NCBI RefSeq assembly: GCF_900129845.1
Contig: NZ_FQXB01000001.1
Location: 1,426,001 to 1,490,000 of the forward strand
DNA length: 64,000 bases
Direction: 5' to 3'
Origin: Cognatiyoonia sediminum
GTDB lineage: Bacteria; Pseudomonadota; Alphaproteobacteria; Rhodobacterales; Rhodobacteraceae
The notes under the pieces were generated by a model, which saw only the letters and a program-made list of their open reading frames with translations, ran no database searches and was not told the origin of the DNA. Position numbers and translations under genes: made by a program. This document shows, piece by piece, positions 4,838-39,106 of the stretch (its first letter is position 1; each line of letters starts with the position of its first letter).

Positions 4838-5583
4838 TGCTACGCCTTCTCGCCCTGCTCCTTGTGCTTGCAATCCCCTTACAAGCAGAAGAAATCGTTT
4901 CAGACCTCAGCCAAGATGAAGTGTCGATCAACGCCACCTTTGACGGCTCCGATATCCTTGTCTTCGGCGCCATCCGCCGCGATGCGCCAGAACCAGAAGG
5001 CGAACTTGGCGTCATCATCACCGTCGCGGGCCCCGACCAACACGTCACAATCCGGCGCAAAGAACGCAAGTTTGGCATCTGGGTAAACTCCGACGAGGTC
5101 GAGATCGAGCAAGCGCCATCCTTCTATGCGGTTGCGAGCAACGCCCCACTCGAAGACATCTTGCGGCCCTCAGAAGACCTCAAAAACCGTGTCACAACCT
5201 CCCAAGCCGTGCGGCAGGTCGGTGCAAACGTGCTCGACAGCGGTAGTTTCGCTAAGGCCCTTGTGCGGATCAAAAGCGATCAGGATTTGTACCAGCTGAA
5301 CGAAGGTGCAGTGAGCCTCTCAGAAGACACGCTCTTTAGCACCTCGATCGAGATGCCCGCCAACTTGACCGAAGGTGACTACGCAACACGCATCATGCTC
5401 ACCCGCGATGGCACTATCGTGGATACCCATGAAACGGTGATCCCAGTACAGAAAGTCGGGATCGAGCGCTTGCTCTACAACATGTCGCGCGAAAACGCCT
5501 TCTGGTACGGGATCATGTCGTTGGCCATCGCGATCGCGGCCGGATGGTTGGCCTCAGCTGCGTTTAGCCTGATACGGCGCTAG
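4837..5583 (+). CDS. TIGR02186-family membrane-anchored protein
   Basis: 248 residues with an N-terminal signal peptide (LALLLVLAIPLQAEE), a periplasmic beta-rich body and one C-terminal membrane helix (about 225-245) ending in LIRR. This matches the TIGR02186 family of uncharacterised proteins found next to TauE/SafE permeases. Overlap with the upstream stop shows translational coupling. Likely an accessory subunit of the permease; no enzymatic motif is visible. Confidence 0.75.
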   Translation: MLRLLALLLVLAIPLQAEEIVSDLSQDEVSINATFDGSDILVFGAIRRDAPEPEGELGVIITVAGPDQHVTIRRKERKFGIWVNSDEVEIEQAPSFYAVASNAPLEDILRPSEDLKNRVTTSQAVRQVGANVLDSGSFAKALVRIKSDQDLYQLNEGAVSLSEDTLFSTSIEMPANLTEGDYATRIMLTRDGTIVDTHETVIPVQKVGIERLLYNMSRENAFWYGIMSLAIAIAAGWLASAAFSLIRR

Positions 5584-30283: not shown

Positions 30284-31168
30284 ATGGCAATTCTCGTAGA
30301 CGAAAACACCAAAGTCATCTGTCAGGGCCTCACCGGCTCTCAGGGTACATTCCACACCGAACAGGCGATTGCCTACGGCACCAAAATGGTTGGTGGCGTC
30401 ACACCAGGAAAAGGTGGGCAAACCCATCTTGATCTGCCGGTCTTCAACAGCGTGCATGAGGCGAAACATGTGACCGAGGCCAACGCCTCAGTCATCTATG
30501 TGCCGCCGCCGTTTGCAGCCGATTCAATCCTCGAAGCCATCGACGCCGAGATGGAACTGATCATCTGCATCACCGAAGGCATCCCCGTGCTCGACATGAT
30601 GAGCGTGAAGAAGGCGCTCGAAGGCTCGTCCTCCCGCCTGATCGGCCCGAATTGCCCCGGCATCATCACGCCGGATGCCTGCAAGATCGGCATCATGCCC
30701 GGCCACATCCACAAACGCGGCTCCGTCGGTGTTGTATCGCGCTCGGGCACGCTGACCTATGAGGCGGTGAAGCAGACCGCTGACTCAGGTCTTGGTCAGT
30801 CCACAGCCGTGGGCATTGGCGGCGACCCGATTAAAGGAACAGAGCATATCGACGTGCTCGACATGTTCCTCGATGATGATGAAACCCAATCCATCATCAT
30901 GATCGGTGAGATTGGCGGCACGGCGGAAGAAGAAGCCGCCGAATTCCTGACCGAGCAGAGCAAAAAGGGACGTTGGAAGCCCGTCGCTGGCTTCATCGCA
31001 GGCCGCACCGCCCCTCCAGGCCGCCGCATGGGCCATGCGGGCGCGATTGTCGCTGGTGGTAAAGGTGACGCGGAAAGCAAAATCGAAGCGATGAAGTCCG
31101 CGGGCATAGTCGTGGCCGACAGCCCAGCGACACTGGGAGAGGCCGTGCTGGAAGCGATTGCGAAGTAG
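30284..31168 (+). CDS. sucD: succinyl-CoA synthetase alpha subunit
   Basis: 294 residues. CoA-binding opening with [17 protein letters not shown] (about 13-29), active-site histidine in [17 protein letters not shown] near 246 and NCPGIITP near 125. Forms the heterodimer with SucC. Followed by a structured repeat and an AT-rich gene before sucA. Confidence 0.97.
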
Positions 31169-31194
31169 ATGACTTCGGTTGCTGTTCATACCAA

Positions 31195-31259
31195 GGGCAG
31201 CGCCGGACCCGAGGGGGGGCGTGAAACGCCCGCCCTGGGGGGCGGGTCGGGCGCTGCCC
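31195..31259. repeat. GC-rich palindromic element, copy A
   Basis: Nested stems: GGGCAGCGCC (31195-31204) pairs with GGGCGCTGCCC (31249-31259), GACCC with GGGTC inside that, and GGGCG-TGAAA-CGCCC at the tip. Copy B at 36414-36482 has the same layout, with base changes that keep the pairs (AGCGC/GCGCT becomes ATCGC/GCGAT; GACCC/GGGTC becomes GACCT/AGGTC). It lies 26 bases after sucD and directly precedes a low-GC gene. Read in frame from 31169 it could encode an extension of that gene, but this looks accidental. Confidence 0.7.
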
Positions 31260-31276
31260 GGCCTATCGCCCGGACG

Positions 31277-31930
31277 ATGATGGCACTGTTGCGAGTAACT
31301 CATACCACTATTTACGCGTTAGCTTTAGCAGTTACAGCCCCCTCAACAGCCTTAGCTGACGAAAGATACGCCGTTCTATTGGTCAACGATATATGCCTAA
31401 ATTCGGAACTGTCACATCAGGACCGAATAGATGAAGTTGACAAACGCGGCTGGACGAGAAGCGGAGGCAATGGGCTGCAGTTTGCAGCTTCAGTGGCTGC
31501 GGCTTTTGAAGAACTCGCACCAGAGCTTTCTGAACAACTTAATTCTGACCTAAGATCAGAAGAGTGGTCTGAACACCTTTGGAGAGAAGGAAATTTAGTT
31601 AGATCCACTGCTGCAATATGGGAGCAGCCCACGTCTTTCTTAGCGCCAAATGGAGCTCACCTAATCCTTACGAAGACTTCTGCTGGACCTCACATTTGCA
31701 TTTTTCTTGCTCCCGAACCACGTTCGCTTATTTTTGGTAGGTTTGGCGTTGTGGGTCGAACCAACTACGTAGATGGCAACGCCATTTTCAGAGGCGCGCT
31801 TCATGACGATGGCTCCCTACTAGAATACCGGGAAATAAATTCTAAAACTTCGAAAAAGCTATTTGGATCAAATGGCTACAGGTTTCTTGCACTAGTCTTG
31901 CTCAATAAAACGACAGAGGTCCCAACATGA
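31277..31930 (+). CDS. AT-rich secreted protein inserted between sucD and sucA
   Basis: About 217 residues from ATG 31277 or 31280. An open frame reaches back to 31169 but passes through the palindromic element, so the later start, at the signal peptide (YALALAVTAPSTALAD), is preferred. The mature part has no recognised domain; one region reads HICIFLAPEPRSLIFGRFG. Two sampled 60-base lines are about 42% GC against about 60% in a sucA line. The stop overlaps the sucA start (ATGA at 31927-31930) and its last codons contain the AGAGG ribosome site of sucA. Probably acquired; role unknown. Confidence 0.68.
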   Translation: MMALLRVTHTTIYALALAVTAPSTALADERYAVLLVNDICLNSELSHQDRIDEVDKRGWTRSGGNGLQFAASVAAAFEELAPELSEQLNSDLRSEEWSEHLWREGNLVRSTAAIWEQPTSFLAPNGAHLILTKTSAGPHICIFLAPEPRSLIFGRFGVVGRTNYVDGNAIFRGALHDDGSLLEYREINSKTSKKLFGSNGYRFLALVLLNKTTEVPT

Positions 31931-34887
31931 CCGACCAATCCCCCAACGACGTCTTCCATTCCTCGTCCTTCCTGCAAGGGCACAACGCGGAATATGTGGA
32001 GCAACTCTACGCCCGCTACGCCGATAACCCCGGCGCGGTGGATGAAAGCTGGCAGGCGTTCTTCCGCTCCCTCGGAGACGCTCCTACGGACACGAAAGCA
32101 GAGGCGGCTGGCCCCAGCTGGGCGCGCACCGATTGGCCGCCACAACCAAATGACGACCTGACCGCCGCGCTCGACGGTCAATGGCCCGCCGAACCCGAAG
32201 CGGCTGGCAAAAAGATCAAAGAGAAGGCCGCCGAAAAAGGCGTCACGCTGGATGAAAACCAAGTTCGCGCCGCCGTGCTCGATTCCGTCCGCGCTCTGAT
32301 GATCATCCGCGCCTATCGGATCAGGGGCCACCTTGTGGCCGACCTCGACCCGCTCGGCATGCGCGACGCGACCCCGCACCCAGAACTGGACCCTGCCTCG
32401 TATGGCTTCAAGCCAGTGGATATGGATCGCCCAATTTTCATCGACAACGTGCTTGGCCTCGAAGTCGCGACGATGACCGAGATTATGGCGATTGTGAAAC
32501 GCACCTATTGCGGCACCTTCGCCCTGCAATACATGCACATCTCCAACCCCGAGGAAGCCGGTTGGCTGAAAGAGCGCATCGAAGGTTATGGCAAAGAGAT
32601 TGCTTTCACCAAGGAAGGCCGCAAGGCGATCCTTGGCTCGATGGTAAAGGCCGAGGGTTTTGAGAAATTCCTCCACGTCAAATACATGGGCACCAAGCGT
32701 TTCGGCCTTGATGGCGGCGAAAGCCTGATCCCCGCGATGGAACAGATCATCAAGCGCGGCGGCCAACTGGGCCTCGAAGACATTGTCATCGGCATGCCGC
32801 ATCGCGGGCGTCTCTCTGTCCTCGCCAACGTCATGGAAAAACCCTACCGCGCGATCCTGAATGAATTCGAAGGCGGCAGCTTTAAGCCAGAAGACGTCGA
32901 TGGCTCAGGCGACGTGAAATACCACCTCGGCGCCTCCTCCGACCGCTCATTCGACGGCAATAACGTGCACCTGTCCCTCACCGCGAACCCCAGCCACCTA
33001 GAGGCAGTGAACCCTGTCGTTCTGGGCAAGGTCCGAGCCAAGCAGGATCAGAAGAACGACGAAGACCGCACAAAGGTCATGGGCATCCTGCTCCACGGTG
33101 ACGCAGCCTTTGCTGGACAAGGCGTTGTGGCCGAAGGGTTTGGCCTCTCTGGCCTCAAAGGGCACAAAACCGGCGGTACGATGCACATCGTGGTCAACAA
33201 CCAGATCGGCTTTACCACAGCTCCGCACTTCAGCCGGTCCAGCCCGTACCCAACTGATATTGCACTGATGGTGGAAGCCCCGATCTTCCACGTGAACGGC
33301 GACGATCCAGAGGCTGTTGTCCATGCGGCGCGCGTCGCGACCGAGTTCCGTCAGAAATTCCACAAAGACGTCGTGCTCGACATCATTTGCTACCGCCGCT
33401 TTGGTCACAACGAAGGCGATGAGCCGATGTTCACCAATCCGGTGATGTACAAGAAGATCAAGACGCATAAAACTTCTCTGACGCTCTATACCGAACGACT
33501 CGTCCGCGACGGTTTGATCCCCGAGGGTGAGATCGAGGATATGAAAACCGCCTTCCAAGCTCATCTGAATGAAGAGTTTGAGGCCGGAAAGAACTACAAG
33601 CCCAACAAGGCTGACTGGCTCGATGGCCGCTGGTCGCATCTGGACAAACGCGATGGCGAATACCAGCGCGGTCAAACCGCGATCAAACGCGAAACCTTCG
33701 ACGAGATCGGCAAAGCGTTGACCACCGTGCCGGAGGGTTTCCCGATCCACAAAACGGTTGGGCGCTTGGTCAAAGCCAAGACCGAGATGTTCGAAAAAGG
33801 CGAAGGCTTCGACTGGGCCACTGGCGAAGCGCTGGCCTTCGGCTCCCTCGCACTTGAAGGCTTCCCTGTGCGCCTCGCCGGTCAAGACTGTACGCGCGGC
33901 ACGTTCAGCCAACGCCACTCCGCCTTCATCAACCAAGACACCGAAGAACGCTACTACCCTCTGAACAACATCCGAGAGGGTCAGGCGCAGTACGAAGTGA
34001 TCGACTCGATGCTCTCCGAATACGCGGTGCTGGGTTTTGAATACGGCTACTCCCTCGCCGAACCCAACGCGCTGGTTCTTTGGGAAGCGCAGTTCGGCGA
34101 TTTCGCCAACGGCGCGCAAATCATGTTCGACCAGTTCATCAGCTCGGGCGAAAGCAAATGGCTGCGGATGTCCGGCCTTGTTTGCCTGCTGCCTCACGGC
34201 TACGAAGGCCAAGGACCTGAACACTCCTCTGCCCGCCTCGAACGCTTCTTGCAGATGTGCGGGCAGGACAACTGGATCGTCGCCAACTGTACGACGCCTG
34301 CCAACTACTTCCACCTACTGCGCCGCCAGATCCACCGCGATTTCCGCAAGCCGTTGATCATCGTGACGCCGAAGTCCTTGCTCCGCCACAAAATGGCGAT
34401 CTCCAAGGCCGAGGAATTCACCGAAGGCTCCAGCTTCCACCGGATCATGTGGGATGACGCTCAGTACGGCAATTCCGACACGAAACTGGCGGCCGATGAC
34501 AAGATCAAGCGCGTCGTCATGTGCTCCGGCAAAGTCTACTACGACCTGCTGGAAGAACGCGACGCTCGCCGCATCAATGACATCTACATCATGCGCTACG
34601 AACAGTTCTATCCGTTCCCTGCGCAATCCTCAGTCAAAGAGCTTGAACGCTTCAAAAATGCCGAAATGGTCTGGTGTCAGGAAGAACCCCGCAACCAAGG
34701 CGCTTGGACCTTTATGGAACCCAACCTTGAATGGGTCCTCACACGGATCAAAGCCAAGCACACCCGCCCCGTTTACGCAGGCAGACCGCCCTCGGCCTCC
34801 CCTGCCACCGGCCTTGCCAGCCAACACAAAGCCCAACAAGCAGCCCTCGTCGATGATGCGCTGACCATCAAAGGATCAAAGAAATGA
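31927..34887 (+). CDS. sucA: 2-oxoglutarate dehydrogenase E1 component
   Basis: 986 residues. The N-terminal E1 recognition segment is [34 protein letters not shown] and the thiamine diphosphate motif GDAAFAGQG...NNQIGFTT follow, and the transketolase-like C-terminal half contains [18 protein letters not shown]. Decarboxylates 2-oxoglutarate and transfers the succinyl group to the lipoyl arm of SucB. Overlaps both neighbours by 4 bases, so translation is coupled to the upstream AT-rich gene. Confidence 0.97.
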
Positions 34888-36389
34888 GCACAGAAGTTCG
34901 TGTCCCAACCTTAGGCGAATCTGTCACTGAGGCCACCGTCGCCACATGGTTCAAAAAACCCGGCGATAGCGTCGCTGTGGATGAAATGCTCTGTGAGCTT
35001 GAAACCGATAAAGTCACCGTCGAAGTCCCCAGCCCCGCCGCTGGCACATTGTCCGAGATTGTGGCCGCCGAAGGCGATACCGTCGGTGTCGATGCCCTGC
35101 TTGCGCAAATCTCTGACGGGGCCGCCGCCCCTGAGCCAAAGGCGGAAACACCAGCCCAAGCGCCCGCACCTGCTGCGGCCTCTGGCGGTGGTGAAAACAT
35201 CGACGTCATGGTTCCAACGCTTGGCGAAAGCGTAACAGAAGCGACGGTTTCCTCTTGGTTCAAAGCCGCTGGCGACGCCGTCGCACAGGATGAAATCCTT
35301 TGTGAGCTGGAAACCGATAAGGTAAGCGTCGAAGTGCCCGCCCCCGCCGCTGGCGTCCTGTCAGAGATCGTCGCTGCTGAAGGCACAACCGTCGATGCCT
35401 CTGCCAAGCTGGCCGTCATCGCCGCAGGAGCCGCAGCCGCAGCGGCCCCCGCGCCTGCCGCCGCCGCACCAGCCGCAACCGCTAGCGCACCCGCTGGCAT
35501 GAAAGACGGCCCCGCGGCTGAAAAAGCACTCGCCGAGGCTGGTATGACCCGTGATCAAGTCGCTGGTACCGGCCGCGATGGTCGCGTCACCAAATCCGAT
35601 GTCGCTGCCGCAGTTGCTGCTGGCGGGTCCGCCCCGGCGCCTGCGGCGACCGCGCCCGCCCCACGTGCCCCCGTCGCCGCCGATCAAGCCGCACGCGAAG
35701 AGCGTGTGAAAATGACGCGCCTGCGCCAAACCATCGCCAAGCGCCTGAAAGACAGCCAGAACACCGCCGCGATGCTCACCACCTACAATGAGGTCGACAT
35801 GACCGAGGTGATGGCCCTGCGCAACGAATACAAAGACCTGTTCTTGAAGAAACACGGCGTGAAGCTCGGCTTTATGTCCTTCTTCACCAAAGCCTGCTGC
35901 CACGCACTGAATGAAGTGCCAGAGGTGAACGCAGAGATTGATGGCACAGACATCGTCTACAAAAGCTACGTCAACATGGGCATCGCTGCAGGCACACCCA
36001 CCGGCCTCGTGGTGCCTGTGATCAACGACGCAGACGCCATGTCCTTCGCTGCGATTGAGAAAGCGATTGCCGAGAAGGGTGCAAAGGCGCGTGATGGCAA
36101 GCTGTCGATGGAAGAGATGCAAGGCGGCACCTTCACCATTTCCAACGGCGGCGTCTACGGCTCCCTGATGAGTTCTCCGATCCTGAACCCGCCACAGTCC
36201 GGCATCTTGGGCATGCACAAAATCCAAGACCGCCCGATGGCGATCAACGGAGAGGTCGTGATCCGCCCGATGATGTATCTCGCCCTCAGCTATGACCACC
36301 GGATCGTGGACGGTAAGGGTGCTGTGACCTTCTTGGTGCGCGTGAAAGAAGCGCTAGAGGATCCACGTCGGTTGTTGATGGATCTTTAA
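34884..36389 (+). CDS. sucB: dihydrolipoyl succinyltransferase (E2) with two lipoyl domains
   Basis: 501 residues. Two lipoyl domains with the lysine in ELETDKV at about 43 and 146, separated by Ala/Pro linkers, then the peripheral subunit-binding domain ([17 protein letters not shown]) and the catalytic domain ending [16 protein letters not shown] with the H...DG pair. Many OdhB proteins have one lipoyl domain; the duplicated form also occurs in this group. Followed by palindromic element copy B. Confidence 0.96.
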
Positions 36390-36413
36390 ACAGATGTTCC
36401 GCGCCGCACATAA

Positions 36414-36482
36414 GGGCATCGCGCGGACCTCAGGGGTGGGCGTGAAGCGCCCTCTCCTCGGGGGGAGGTCCGGGCGATGCCC
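36414..36482. repeat. GC-rich palindromic element, copy B
   Basis: GGGCATCGC (36414-36422) pairs with GGGCGATGCCC (36472-36482), GGACCT with AGGTCC inside, and GGGCG-TGAA-GCGCCC at the tip. It has the same nested design as copy A after sucD, and again lies just after a suc gene and just before an AT-rich gene. Compensatory differences between the two copies show that the fold is what is conserved. Confidence 0.7.
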
Positions 36483-36503
36483 GGCGACGCCGGGCAACCA
36501 GCT

Positions 36504-36821
36504 ATGAACTCACCAAAGTCGAAAGATAGTGACGAAGGTACTCCCGATGGAACTGTTTATTGGCTTTCAAAGCATCTAGGTTGGCAACCAACATTGGGGT
36601 CTGAAATGCCGTCCTTGTGTGTGGTCTCAGCCATAGCCAAAGACAGCGACCATGAACACTGCGCTGGCTGCTGGGAAAAATTTGGGAGCGGAACAAAATT
36701 TGAAGGCAAAATTTTTGCGACAAACAAGGACTCGGAAGTAGCAAAACACTTCGTCTGTGAAAATTGCTGGGATTTGATGAAAAAAGTAAAAAATGGCGAA
36801 CGAAAGGTAACAAGCCAATGA
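36504..36821 (+). CDS. AT-rich small zinc-ribbon-like protein between sucB and lpd
   Basis: 105 residues from ATG 36504 (MNSPKSKDSDEG); an ATG at 36477 lies in the palindromic element region. Two CxxC pairs, CAGCWEKF and CENCWDLMKK, about 31 residues apart look like a treble-clef or zinc-ribbon site. Highly charged and soluble. One sampled line is 42% and another 47% GC, below the neighbours. Its stop overlaps the following MAPEG start (ATGA at 36818). Function unknown. Confidence 0.62.
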   Translation: MNSPKSKDSDEGTPDGTVYWLSKHLGWQPTLGSEMPSLCVVSAIAKDSDHEHCAGCWEKFGSGTKFEGKIFATNKDSEVAKHFVCENCWDLMKKVKNGERKVTSQ

Positions 36822-37216
36822 CATCGGAACTCACTTACCTGCTATACACCGTTATCCTTCTGATCGTTCACGTGCTTTTTCAAGCTACCTTGTCTGACTT
36901 ATCAAAGGGCCTTGGCTGGGCCCTCGGTCCTCAAGATGAACCACGTGACCAAAACGCCGTCGCCGATCGTGTCCAACGGGCGTTGCGTAATTTTCTCGAA
37001 ACCTTTCCAGCGTTTGCAGCCTTGGCCCTCATGCTCGCCGTGACGGACAGCGGGACGGCTCAATCAGCTTTGGGTGCAGCAGTCTATTTCTGGGCTCGTA
37101 TCGCCTATATTCCCGCGTTTGCATCTGGCCTTCCGCTCGTCCGGTCGATTGCCTGGTTCACATCTCTCGGCGGGTTGCTCCTGATGATCCTACCGTTCTT
37201 CATAAGCGCGACTTGA
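36818..37216 (+). CDS. MAPEG-family membrane protein, first copy
   Basis: 132 residues from ATG 36818 (MTSELTYLLYTVILL). Four membrane helices with the MAPEG pattern RVQRALRNFLETFPAFAALAL (the ERxxxNxxE-like segment) and YFWARIAYIPAF. MAPEG proteins include membrane glutathione transferases and peroxidases. Directly followed by a second MAPEG gene with 4-base overlap, suggesting a tandem duplication or heteromer. Confidence 0.85.
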   Translation: MTSELTYLLYTVILLIVHVLFQATLSDLSKGLGWALGPQDEPRDQNAVADRVQRALRNFLETFPAFAALALMLAVTDSGTAQSALGAAVYFWARIAYIPAFASGLPLVRSIAWFTSLGGLLLMILPFFISAT

Positions 37217-37626
37217 TGACCCCTGAACTCCAAGTCCTCGCCTACGCCGTTGTCCTGCAAGCGACCCAATTCGCCCTGATGTCGATCTCGGCCAACCTCG
37301 ACCTTGGCCCCTCCAAGACCCTCTCAGCCCGCGACGAATCCCACCTCGGTGGCCCGCTCTCAAGCCAGCTCTCCGACAAACCCGCCCGCCTCTACCGCGC
37401 GATGAACAACCACTTTGAGGCGCTGATCCTCTACACCGCCGCCGTTGTCGTCGTCGTCCTTGGTGACAAGACAACCGGCCTCACCGCGATCTGTGCATGG
37501 ACCTACCTCGCCGCCCGCATCCTCTACGTCCCCGCCTACTACTTCGGCTGGGCGCCTTGGCGCTCTCTGATCTGGTTCACGGGCTTTCTCGCCACCCTCG
37601 CAATGGTCCTCTCCACATGGATTTGA
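37213..37626 (+). CDS. MAPEG-family membrane protein, second copy
   Basis: 137 residues, four helices; RLYRAMNNHFEALILYTAAVVVV and AARILYVPAYYFGWAPWRS mark the MAPEG fold. Divergent in sequence from the copy just upstream. Found inside the suc-lpd block, after the AT-rich zinc-ribbon gene and 91 bases before lpd. Confidence 0.85.
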   Translation: MMTPELQVLAYAVVLQATQFALMSISANLDLGPSKTLSARDESHLGGPLSSQLSDKPARLYRAMNNHFEALILYTAAVVVVVLGDKTTGLTAICAWTYLAARILYVPAYYFGWAPWRSLIWFTGFLATLAMVLSTWI

Positions 37627-37717: not shown

Positions 37718-39106
37718 ATGGCCAGCTATGATGTCATCGTAATCGGAAGCGGACCCGGCGGATATGTCAGCGCAATCCGCTGCGCCCAGCTTGGTCTCAA
37801 GACCGCGATTGTCGAAGGTCGCGAAACCTTGGGCGGCACCTGCCTGAACGTCGGATGTATCCCGTCCAAAGCGCTCCTGCACGCGACCGAAATGCTGCAC
37901 GAAGCACAGGCCAATTTCGCCAAGATGGGCCTCAAAGGAAAAGCGCAGACGGTCGATTGGAAGCAGATGCTCCAATACAAGATGGACACCATCGGGCAAA
38001 ACACCCAAGGCGTTGAATTCTTGATGAAAAAGAACAAAATCGACTGGCTGAAAGGCTGGGGTTCGATCCCCGCCGTCGGACAAGTGAAGGTCGGCGATGA
38101 GGTGCATGAGGCGAAAAACATCATCATCGCCTCCGGCTCGACACCCACGGATTTGCCCGGTGTTGAAGTTGACGAGAAAACCGTCGTGACCTCTACAGGT
38201 GCGCTTGAATTGCCAAAGGTTCCAAAGACATTCGTCGTCATCGGCGGCGGTGTCATCGGCCTCGAACTCGGCTCCGTCTACGCCCGATTGGGCGCAGAGG
38301 TCACCGTGATCGAGTTCCTAGACCAGATCACCCCCGGCCAAGACAAAGAGATCGCCAAAACCTTCCAGCGCACCTTAAAGAAACAAGGCATGAAATTCGT
38401 CATGGGTGCCGCTGTACAGTCGGCCAAAAAGAAAGGCACTAAGGCCGAAGTCACCTACAAACTACGCAAAGATGACAGCGAACACACCATCACCGCTGAC
38501 GCTGTCCTCCTCGCCACCGGCCGCCGCCCCTATACCGACGGCCTCGGCCTTGCAGAGCTTGGCGTCGAAATGACGGAGCGAGGCCAGATCAAAACCGACA
38601 GCCACTACCGCACCAACGTCACTGGCATCTACGCGATCGGCGACGCCATCGAAGGCCCGATGCTGGCCCACAAAGCCGAAGACGAAGGCATGGCCTGCGC
38701 CGAAGGCATCGCTGGCCAACACCCGCACGTGAACTACGGCGTCATCCCCGGCGTGATCTACACCCACCCAGAAGTCAGTAGCGTCGGCGCAACCGAAGAA
38801 GTGCTGAAAGACCAAGGCGTTGACTATAAGGTTGGTAAATTCAGCTTTATGGGCAATGGCCGCGCCAAAGCAAACTTTGCAGGTGACGGTTTCGTCAAAA
38901 TCCTCGCCGACAAAGCGACCGACCGCATCCTAGGTGCCCATATAATCGGCCCAATGGCCGGCGATCTGATCCATGAGATTTGCGTCGCAATGGAATTCGG
39001 CGCCACCGCCGAAGACCTCGCTCGCACCTGCCACGCACACCCCACTTACTCAGAAGCGGTCCGCGAAGCCGCCCTCGCCTGTGGCGACGGCGCGATACAC
39101 ATGTAA
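37718..39106 (+). CDS. lpd: dihydrolipoyl dehydrogenase (E3)
   Basis: 462 residues. FAD motif [17 protein letters not shown] at about 9-25, redox disulfide [16 protein letters not shown] at about 40-55, NAD motif [19 protein letters not shown] near 175 and the C-terminal [13 protein letters not shown] with the active-site His/Glu. Re-oxidises the lipoyl arms of SucB. Preceded by AAAAGGAGCC, a strong ribosome site. Confidence 0.96.

Follow-up and report, generated by a model that had tools for sequence, protein, structure and literature searches.

The suc operon of Cognatiyoonia sediminum raises the question of why two similar palindromes stand between its genes, each of them followed by a gene of lower GC content. 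A first-pass annotation of the window, that is, of the whole stretch of 64,000 nucleotides analysed here, had offered two answers: a mobile hairpin that brings or attracts cargo genes, or an RNA element that insulates such cargo inside the operon. The order of the operon is sucD, element A, a cargo gene of 217 amino acids, sucA, sucB, element B, a cargo gene of 114 amino acids, two MAPEG genes and lpd, with the following features:

30284..31168, + strand: sucD (open reading frame; named by sequence reading; orthologues used for gap measurement)
31193..31267, + strand: element A, a nested three-level stem-loop in the sucD-sucA gap (covariance model R1, fold, covariation)
31277..31930, + strand: cargo A, 217 aa (open reading frame)
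31927..34887, + strand: sucA (open reading frame; named by sequence reading)
34884..36389, + strand: sucB (open reading frame; named by sequence reading; orthologues used for gap measurement)
36412..36495, + strand: element B, the repeat plus a small 3' hairpin, in the sucB-lpd gap (covariance model R1, fold, identity)
36477..36821, + strand: cargo B, 114 aa, start possibly at 36504 (open reading frame)
36818..37216, + strand: MAPEG protein 1 of the sucB-lpd slot (Pfam PF01124, E 5.5e-22)
37213..37626, + strand: MAPEG protein 2 of the sucB-lpd slot (Pfam PF01124, E 1.3e-25)
37718..39106, + strand: lpd (open reading frame; named by sequence reading; orthologues used for gap measurement)

Both copies were found where the first-pass annotation had placed them. 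Element A starts 24 nt past the sucD stop and element B 22 nt past the sucB stop (about 25 bases had been given), and each of them folds into a stem of three nested levels at about -61 kcal/mol, with 1 of 200 dinucleotide shuffles folding as well for A and none of 200 for B. Covariance model R1, built on six other copies with A left out, recovers A at E = 3e-7; element B scores 104.6 bits with this model, B itself being among the model's copies, and is 89-93% identical to four other copies of its own genome. The genes that follow are indeed lower in GC, since the slot of A, taken without the element, lies 11.3 GC points below sucA and the open reading frame 3' of B has 46% GC; sucA itself is nearer 58% than the 60% first estimated. 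In the window, sucA and sucB overlap by 4 nt, and a sucA homologue is present in 79 of 80 genomes. Rfam gave no match for A or B at E<=1 and, for the elements of 12 loci including A's own, no family at E<=0.1, only a tRNA being found.

The repeat to which A and B belong is palindromic, dispersed and 75-85 nt long. In their own genome, the covariance model finds nine places at E below 1e-6 and a weaker one, which makes about ten copies with A and B included; the near copies are also found by DNA search, and the model without A recovers A together with two other divergent copies. The first-pass annotation had suggested extending such a search to related genomes, and there the repeat is present in 94 of 248 genomes of the Rhodobacteraceae in the wide sense (E up to 1e-4, 18 candidates scored per genome), with 6 to 43 copies per genome in 12 genomes that were chosen for high counts. 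Among the three members of the genus examined, G001 has no copy and G002 has one at E up to 0.001. A 23-base core pattern occurs in at least 120 stretches of named genomes, and 80 loci (81 elements) among the matches listed make up what we call the named sample. The genera among the matches listed are Leisingera, Phaeobacter, Shimia, Rhodovulum and others, which we take to be Rhodobacteraceae in the wide sense, in addition to MAGs that are placed no more closely than in Rhodobacterales or Alphaproteobacteria. With one G223 copy as query, 144 plasmid records were retrieved, from hosts of the genera Pseudosulfitobacter, Phaeobacter, Leisingera, Ruegeria and Tritonibacter, and no match was found among phage records. 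Among the matches listed in searches of the open-access literature, no description of this palindromic repeat was found.

The repeat forms an imperfect hairpin whose loop, of GNGAARC type, is conserved and which has a G-rich bulge on one side only; in 91 of 97 copies a small hairpin comes after it. Compensatory changes had been claimed from the arms of A and B. Two copies are too few to judge them, and the six own-genome model copies alone give no significant covariation; in 98 copies the claim is borne out, with 94.9% of the pair cells paired and double-sided changes in 22 of 27 pairs, a level that none of 500 shuffles reached and that slides did not approach. The structure of the repeat is under selection. 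In its stems, G-U pairs outnumber A-C pairs by 80 to 12 in the model-aligned copies, a count that leans towards G-U because the model scores G-U; when the exact loop core decides the strand, the numbers are 48 and 18 (p = 0.0003; 73 of the 81 elements of the named sample scored, among the matches listed). This excess is in keeping with a hairpin that acts in single-stranded form, as RNA or ssDNA, and from one particular strand. In the small 3' hairpin, G-U pairs do not outnumber A-C pairs (4 to 6).

Where the repeat sits in genomes was evaluated in two samples. In the family sample, 69 placed copies lie in 31 convergent, 36 co-directional and 2 divergent gaps, against 29, 134 and 94, respectively, among the control gaps (p = 1.5e-12; of 71 elements, 2 are not counted, and 5 of those counted overlap a called gene). 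The named sample, among the matches listed, gave 14 convergent, 27 co-directional sense, 17 co-directional antisense and 2 divergent positions (p = 2.5e-5), omitting 15 of 81 elements at locus edges and 6 overlapping a called gene. It should be noted that the two counts are not independent, because the samples overlap in genomes (G223, G206, G145, G233), and that gene contexts come from a home-made ORF caller which misses cargo A and cargo B. The repeat thus sits mainly at gene 3' ends and hardly ever between divergent genes. The same distribution would result from purifying selection by itself, and this speaks for a neutral REP-like insertion that is merely harmless past sucD and sucB and has no role in suc expression. 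The absence of a clear genome-wide strand bias (16 sense and 20 antisense copies in the co-directional gaps of the family sample) agrees with such neutrality. In Leisingera, a copy separates the gene of a TAXI-TRAP binding protein from that of its permease and is antisense to both; since there is no clear sense bias genome-wide and this copy is antisense, an RNA role is not the general rule of the element. In Phaeobacter, a copy in sense orientation is found in the layout rfbB-[element]-small ORF-rfbD. Both copies would fit the same intercistronic use that we discuss below for suc. The 3' end of cysS (gene named by sequence reading) is another recurrent neighbour, at 5 loci.

These traits recall the REPs, described in the available excerpt of PMC3733652 as palindromes at gene 3' ends, mainly in convergent or co-directional gaps, with G-T pairs in their stems. 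The present repeat is likewise dispersed, placed at 3' ends in the same kinds of gaps and richer in G-U than in A-C pairs. It differs in length (75-85 nt, against the 20-40 bp given in that excerpt), in its three nested levels with a second hairpin, and in that no Y1/RAYT gene is present in its own genome. The motifs GTAG or CGTC were found in the 5' 12 nt of 10 of 97 copies, about 7% being expected per copy, and their complement in the 3' 20 nt of 8 of 97, with about 13% expected. The repeat is a REP in the general sense, a multicopy intergenic palindrome, and lies outside the tagged super-families (GTAG, CGTC); it is a new untagged REP-like family.

That the hairpin is mobile, as the first-pass annotation had supposed, is supported by its dispersed copies and by a pair of filled and empty sites. 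Leisingera aquaemixtae has a copy inside xdhC, an in-frame insert of 114 nt (38 codons) that was aligned in two strains at this single locus and is absent from Leisingera sp. M658 (DNA alignment) and from one Pseudosulfitobacter (protein alignment). The insert contains no gene, so the repeat can be gained without one, and as it is longer than the modelled element of 78 nt, the gained unit takes in some flanking DNA. At a second L. aquaemixtae site, one intergenic region has non-homologous stretches in two strains, each with an element of its own and the two elements facing opposite ways, which indicates that such regions turn over fast. A copy in frame within a protein gene is also a trait of the Rickettsia palindromic elements (RPE) as presented in the same excerpt of PMC3733652; those belong to another bacterial family, most copies of our repeat are intergenic, and the likeness is one of description. 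A look for a nearby transposase that recognises the hairpin had also been suggested, and mobilisation of the RAYT/IS200 type was rejected: the Y1 transposase (RAYT, PF01797) is absent from the own genome and from 13 of the 15 genomes searched (14 with the element, plus G001 without it), being found in G091 and G249 and not in G000, G223 or G233. Bacterial MITEs are short, non-autonomous and palindromic, and vary in copy number. Our repeat has all these properties. MITEs also have a target-site duplication, and share terminal inverted repeats with an autonomous element; at the one filled and empty pair, xdhC, where the flanks have diverged, no duplication was visible, and no parent insertion sequence was found, Y1 being the sole family searched.

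We then come to the suc operon, surveyed in 43 genomes: the own genome and 42 relatives, the operons of 40 of the 79 sucA-positive genomes were taken in order of score, as far as the contigs permitted, and those of G001 and G002 were added. The suc copies of G022, G038 and G051 had been noticed before this choice. The sucD-sucA gap ranges from 54 to 3484 nt and the sucB-lpd gap from 58 to 2503 nt, whereas sucA and sucB either overlap or leave no more than 44 nt between them. In the gaps are found MAPEG genes, families that recur between sucD and sucA, and numerous singletons (63 of 125 gap ORFs, some of them probably spurious antisense ORFs). Hence the two slots proposed at first are real: in most of the 43 operons, both gaps are variable gene slots. 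At E below 1e-4, the element is present in the suc gaps of 8 of the 43 genomes (7 of 42 relatives and the window), in 9 copies, all sense, only in these two gaps and 15-129 nt past the stop; a weaker match, L184 (E 0.0013), lies after lpd. G001 and G002, of the same genus, have no element in the suc slots.

Several of these results bear on whether the suc copies are neutral. Among the matches listed for the core pattern, the suc gaps hold 6 of 81 copies against 0.15 expected (P = 1.2e-8), about 40 times what would fall to them if copies were spread evenly over the non-divergent gaps; the expectation assumes such an even spread over about 1,105 called non-divergent gaps per 3.8 Mb. The orientation is sense in all 9 surveyed copies and in 6 of 6 named ones (among the matches listed). 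On the other side, presence on the sucA tree is patchy: the sucD-sucA element is scattered, and its 7 rows need 7 changes if the weak G051 copy is counted, or 6 rows need 6 if it is not. The suc copies mostly have their nearest relatives among copies that lie outside suc in other genomes, and element B clusters with copies of its own genome; with this and the scattered presence, orthology of the suc copies was rejected. The operon has probably recruited the repeat, either repeatedly or with many losses. Taking into account also the excess of G-U over A-C pairs and the hairpins of other sequence described next, we consider neutral insertion rather unlikely as the explanation for suc.

In element-free genomes, the stretch past the stops tends to fold as well. 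The 80 nt past sucD have a mean z of -1.64 (n = 36), below -2 in 14 of 36, and the 80 nt past sucB a mean z of -2.04 (n = 40), below -2 in 20 of 40; the sucA-sucB junction gives +0.61, and windows inside the slots and inside sucA give -0.16 to -0.31. The element-free stretches are not clearly better than shuffles in 22 of 36 genomes past sucD and in 20 of 40 past sucB. A stem-loop at the ends of sucCD and sucAB is therefore a family-wide tendency, though not a universal one. In the folding test the weak G051 sucD-sucA copy counts as element-bearing, and in the gap and GC comparisons as element-free. The stem-loops at these ends are built from different sequences, the repeat being one way to have one.

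This folding of element-free stretches is what makes the idea of an RNA separator plausible, and we think it fairly likely that a REP-like repeat has been recruited as an intercistronic stem-loop separating the sucCD, sucAB and lpd segments of the mRNA. This REP-like repeat, which is non-autonomous, can be gained by itself and stands for the most part at gene 3' ends; within suc, it would have been recruited as a stem-loop past sucD and sucB, where relatives often have other hairpins. There the hairpin would most likely act on the mRNA: it would shield the sucCD and sucAB segments from 3'-5' decay and might stop some of the read-through as well, which would leave the accessory genes of both slots expressed below the TCA genes. 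Protection or attenuation of the mRNA, and selection for it, are inferred here, and a single transcript for the suc genes is assumed. There are precedents in the available excerpts of PMC10253847 and PMC5927463, where an intercistronic hairpin of the Rhodobacter puf operon keeps the upstream segment longer and E. coli operons have internal protective hairpins without a U-tract. The suc hairpin similarly is mostly without a U-tract, lies between neighbouring genes and is 3' of the segment to be kept; unlike those in the excerpts, it is a dispersed repeat, and for the suc genes a single transcript is presumed.

Some observations run against the hairpin as an end cap. Stem-loops past stops are common, and the suc gaps may simply be transcript ends; G001 and G002 lack the element in their slots; three of the four named sucB-lpd copies (among the matches listed) lie about 300-500 nt past sucB; and the small 3' hairpin lacks the G-U excess, as we mentioned before. 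If the gaps were the ends of transcription units, the element could be a terminator that ends the sucCD and sucAB transcripts. Its position past the stops would suit this role, as would the U-tailed hairpins seen by eye in some relatives (G040 past sucD; G043 and G078 past sucB). However, a T-run lies within 17 nt of the element in only 9 of 97 copies, and a terminator scan of the region lists neither A nor B, so that the element differs from intrinsic terminators on both accounts; we regard termination as doubtful. A further candidate, a promoter of the element's own for an sRNA, was discarded. The 40 nt upstream of 97 copies have no conserved box, their profile showing only a weak CA at the edge of the element, and the CATATG-like spacer after sucD of several genomes, considered as a -10 box, is also seen by eye in the element-free G001, G077 and G020.

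There remains the idea that the hairpin brings or attracts cargo, i.e. that the element and an AT-rich gene were acquired together, the hairpin bounding small replaceable cassettes and the slots turning over as units. Element-bearing sucD-sucA gaps are more AT-rich, with a median of -6.7 GC points relative to sucA (n = 6), than element-free gaps of at least 450 nt, with -0.2 (n = 24; p = 0.0013), which is what is left in favour of a cargo link. Nevertheless, the sucB-lpd slot shows no GC difference between element-bearing and element-free gaps (n = 3 and 35), and AT-rich sucB-lpd genes occur without the element in G001, G004, G005, G022, G029 and G075. Long gaps are common without it: 24 of 37 element-free sucD-sucA gaps and 35 of 40 element-free sucB-lpd gaps measure 450 nt or more. 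Genome-wide, an AT-rich flank accompanies 22 of 70 copies (70 of the 71 elements tested) against 32 of 247 control gaps, but 48 of the 70 have none, and the median GC shift of the flank, taken across the copies as a whole, falls short of significance (p = 0.08), G233 by itself giving p = 0.01. The opposed elements in non-homologous stretches of the Leisingera site, and the small ORF of the Phaeobacter rfbB-rfbD layout, would be compatible with cassettes, while the xdhC insert was gained with no gene. Cargo carried by the element as a general rule was therefore rejected on the flanks and on that gene-free insert, and joint acquisition, which we retain as a rival reading for the sucD-sucA slot, seems to us unlikely.

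The cargo genes themselves were also considered. Cargo A has a signal-peptide-like N-terminus (by eye) and no match in Pfam or NCBIfam, and single-sequence searches of 60 other genomes found no relative of cargo A or cargo B. In a profile comparison, cargo A is 11-23% identical to slot proteins; one Cys is invariant, inspection by eye shows a recurring Gly-Trp motif and another Cys, and the N-termini of the slot family are signal-peptide-like. After element-encoded N-termini had been trimmed, the five seeds of this family gave leave-one-out E-values of 0.02 to 2e-7 in a set of 126 proteins. On this weak homology, cargo A probably belongs to a secreted family of the sucD-sucA slot that diverges fast. 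Its profile, run against 80 genomes, returned 9 strong matches, all already in the query alignment, and one G072 match elsewhere (E 0.009), with no clear new member. An apparent clustering of cargo A with slot ORFs of G073 and G081 was dismissed, as it arose from translation of the element itself. Members of the family, probable relatives of cargo A, are present in the element-free slots of G015, G034, G054, G065 and probably G001, with GC close to that of sucA, which counts against cargo brought by the hairpin. Family members in slots with the element have a lower third-position GC than those in slots without it (p = 0.016, n = 5 and 5), in favour of joint acquisition, but this link is biased because the family was seeded from element-bearing slots, and the independent pairs are too few to reach 0.05. 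AlphaFold2 gave cargo A a mean pLDDT of 51.6. Cargo B is an orphan, present in 1 of 61 genomes, its own, with a sub-threshold DZR_2 match (E 0.004) and a possible zinc-ribbon motif.

The insulating RNA is thus the better half of what was first proposed, and the cargo half goes unsupported beyond a small-sample link in one slot. The likelihoods that we attach to the readings are not mutually exclusive, and a further one joins parts of them: the upstream edge of the suc slots may be set by an exchangeable hairpin, and the mobile REP-like repeat, as one standard part for that edge that is captured there repeatedly in sense, may travel with AT-rich newcomers of the sucD-sucA gap and ease their settlement, which we hold to be improbable. 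What we describe is a palindromic repeat that covaries and is widespread in a large bacterial family; it is without the tags and, here, without the Y1 transposase that define known REPs. It provides a concrete example of a mobile repeat that comes, time and again, to stand as an intercistronic hairpin in an operon of central metabolism. If the hairpin does form the exchangeable edge of the slots, the mobility of the repeat would help new genes to settle in an essential operon without disturbing it.

The REP-like palindromic element in the sucD-sucA gap lies within an open reading frame in three genomes: the frame opens at the sucD stop and runs, without a change of phase, through the element and into the slot protein, the product of the gene that occupies this gap. 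A copy of the element also lies in frame within xdhC of Leisingera aquaemixtae. The sites are as follows.

Window 31169-31276, and the corresponding slots of genomes G073 and G081: read-through ORF; the element is in the same frame as the slot protein.
L320:2504-2581 (L. aquaemixtae locus), antisense to xdhC: element within xdhC, in frame, with 38 extra codons.

In relatives from several genera, the first 30 nt after the sucD stop were seen by eye to hold a recurrent CATATG-like spacer, which separates this stop from the element or hairpin that follows; the spacer is also present in genomes that do not carry the element there (G001, G077 and G020). In our own sequence, the spacer after the sucD stop (window 31169-31192) has CATACC only. 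Clustering of the proteins encoded in the sucD-sucA slot showed, in addition, a second recurrent family (G011, G013, G033, G040, G045, G050, G051, G057 and G075), which we take to resemble the DUF805 membrane proteins.

Outside the suc operon, the second recurrent location of the element is the 3' end of cysS, a gene that was named from reading the sequence; in five loci (L213, L055, L046, L216 and L234) the element is found 8-24 nt from the cysS stop. A plasmid of Phaeobacter inhibens presents the order rfbB, element, a 186-nt hypothetical ORF and rfbD (L321:2484-2753), being another gene cluster with the element and a small ORF inside. At one intergenic site, two strains of L. aquaemixtae carry different elements in opposite orientation (L323:48475-48552 and L324:47690-47767), with flanks that are non-homologous between the strains, as if the entire stretch had been replaced.

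Inspection by eye also revealed variant elements in two genomes (L263, about 5250-5370, and the sucD-sucA gap of L156), where the G-rich bulge is replaced by an insert of ~28 nt resembling further small hairpins. The genome of C. sediminum itself contains a second repeat of ~150 nt (loci L006, L007 and L008, around 1400-1560), whose copies are 77-79% identical, together with further partial matches. Compared by eye, its inner part is longer than that of the element, and both repeats seem to share a common scaffold composed of the outer stem, the one-sided GGGGGG bulge and the 3' hairpin.
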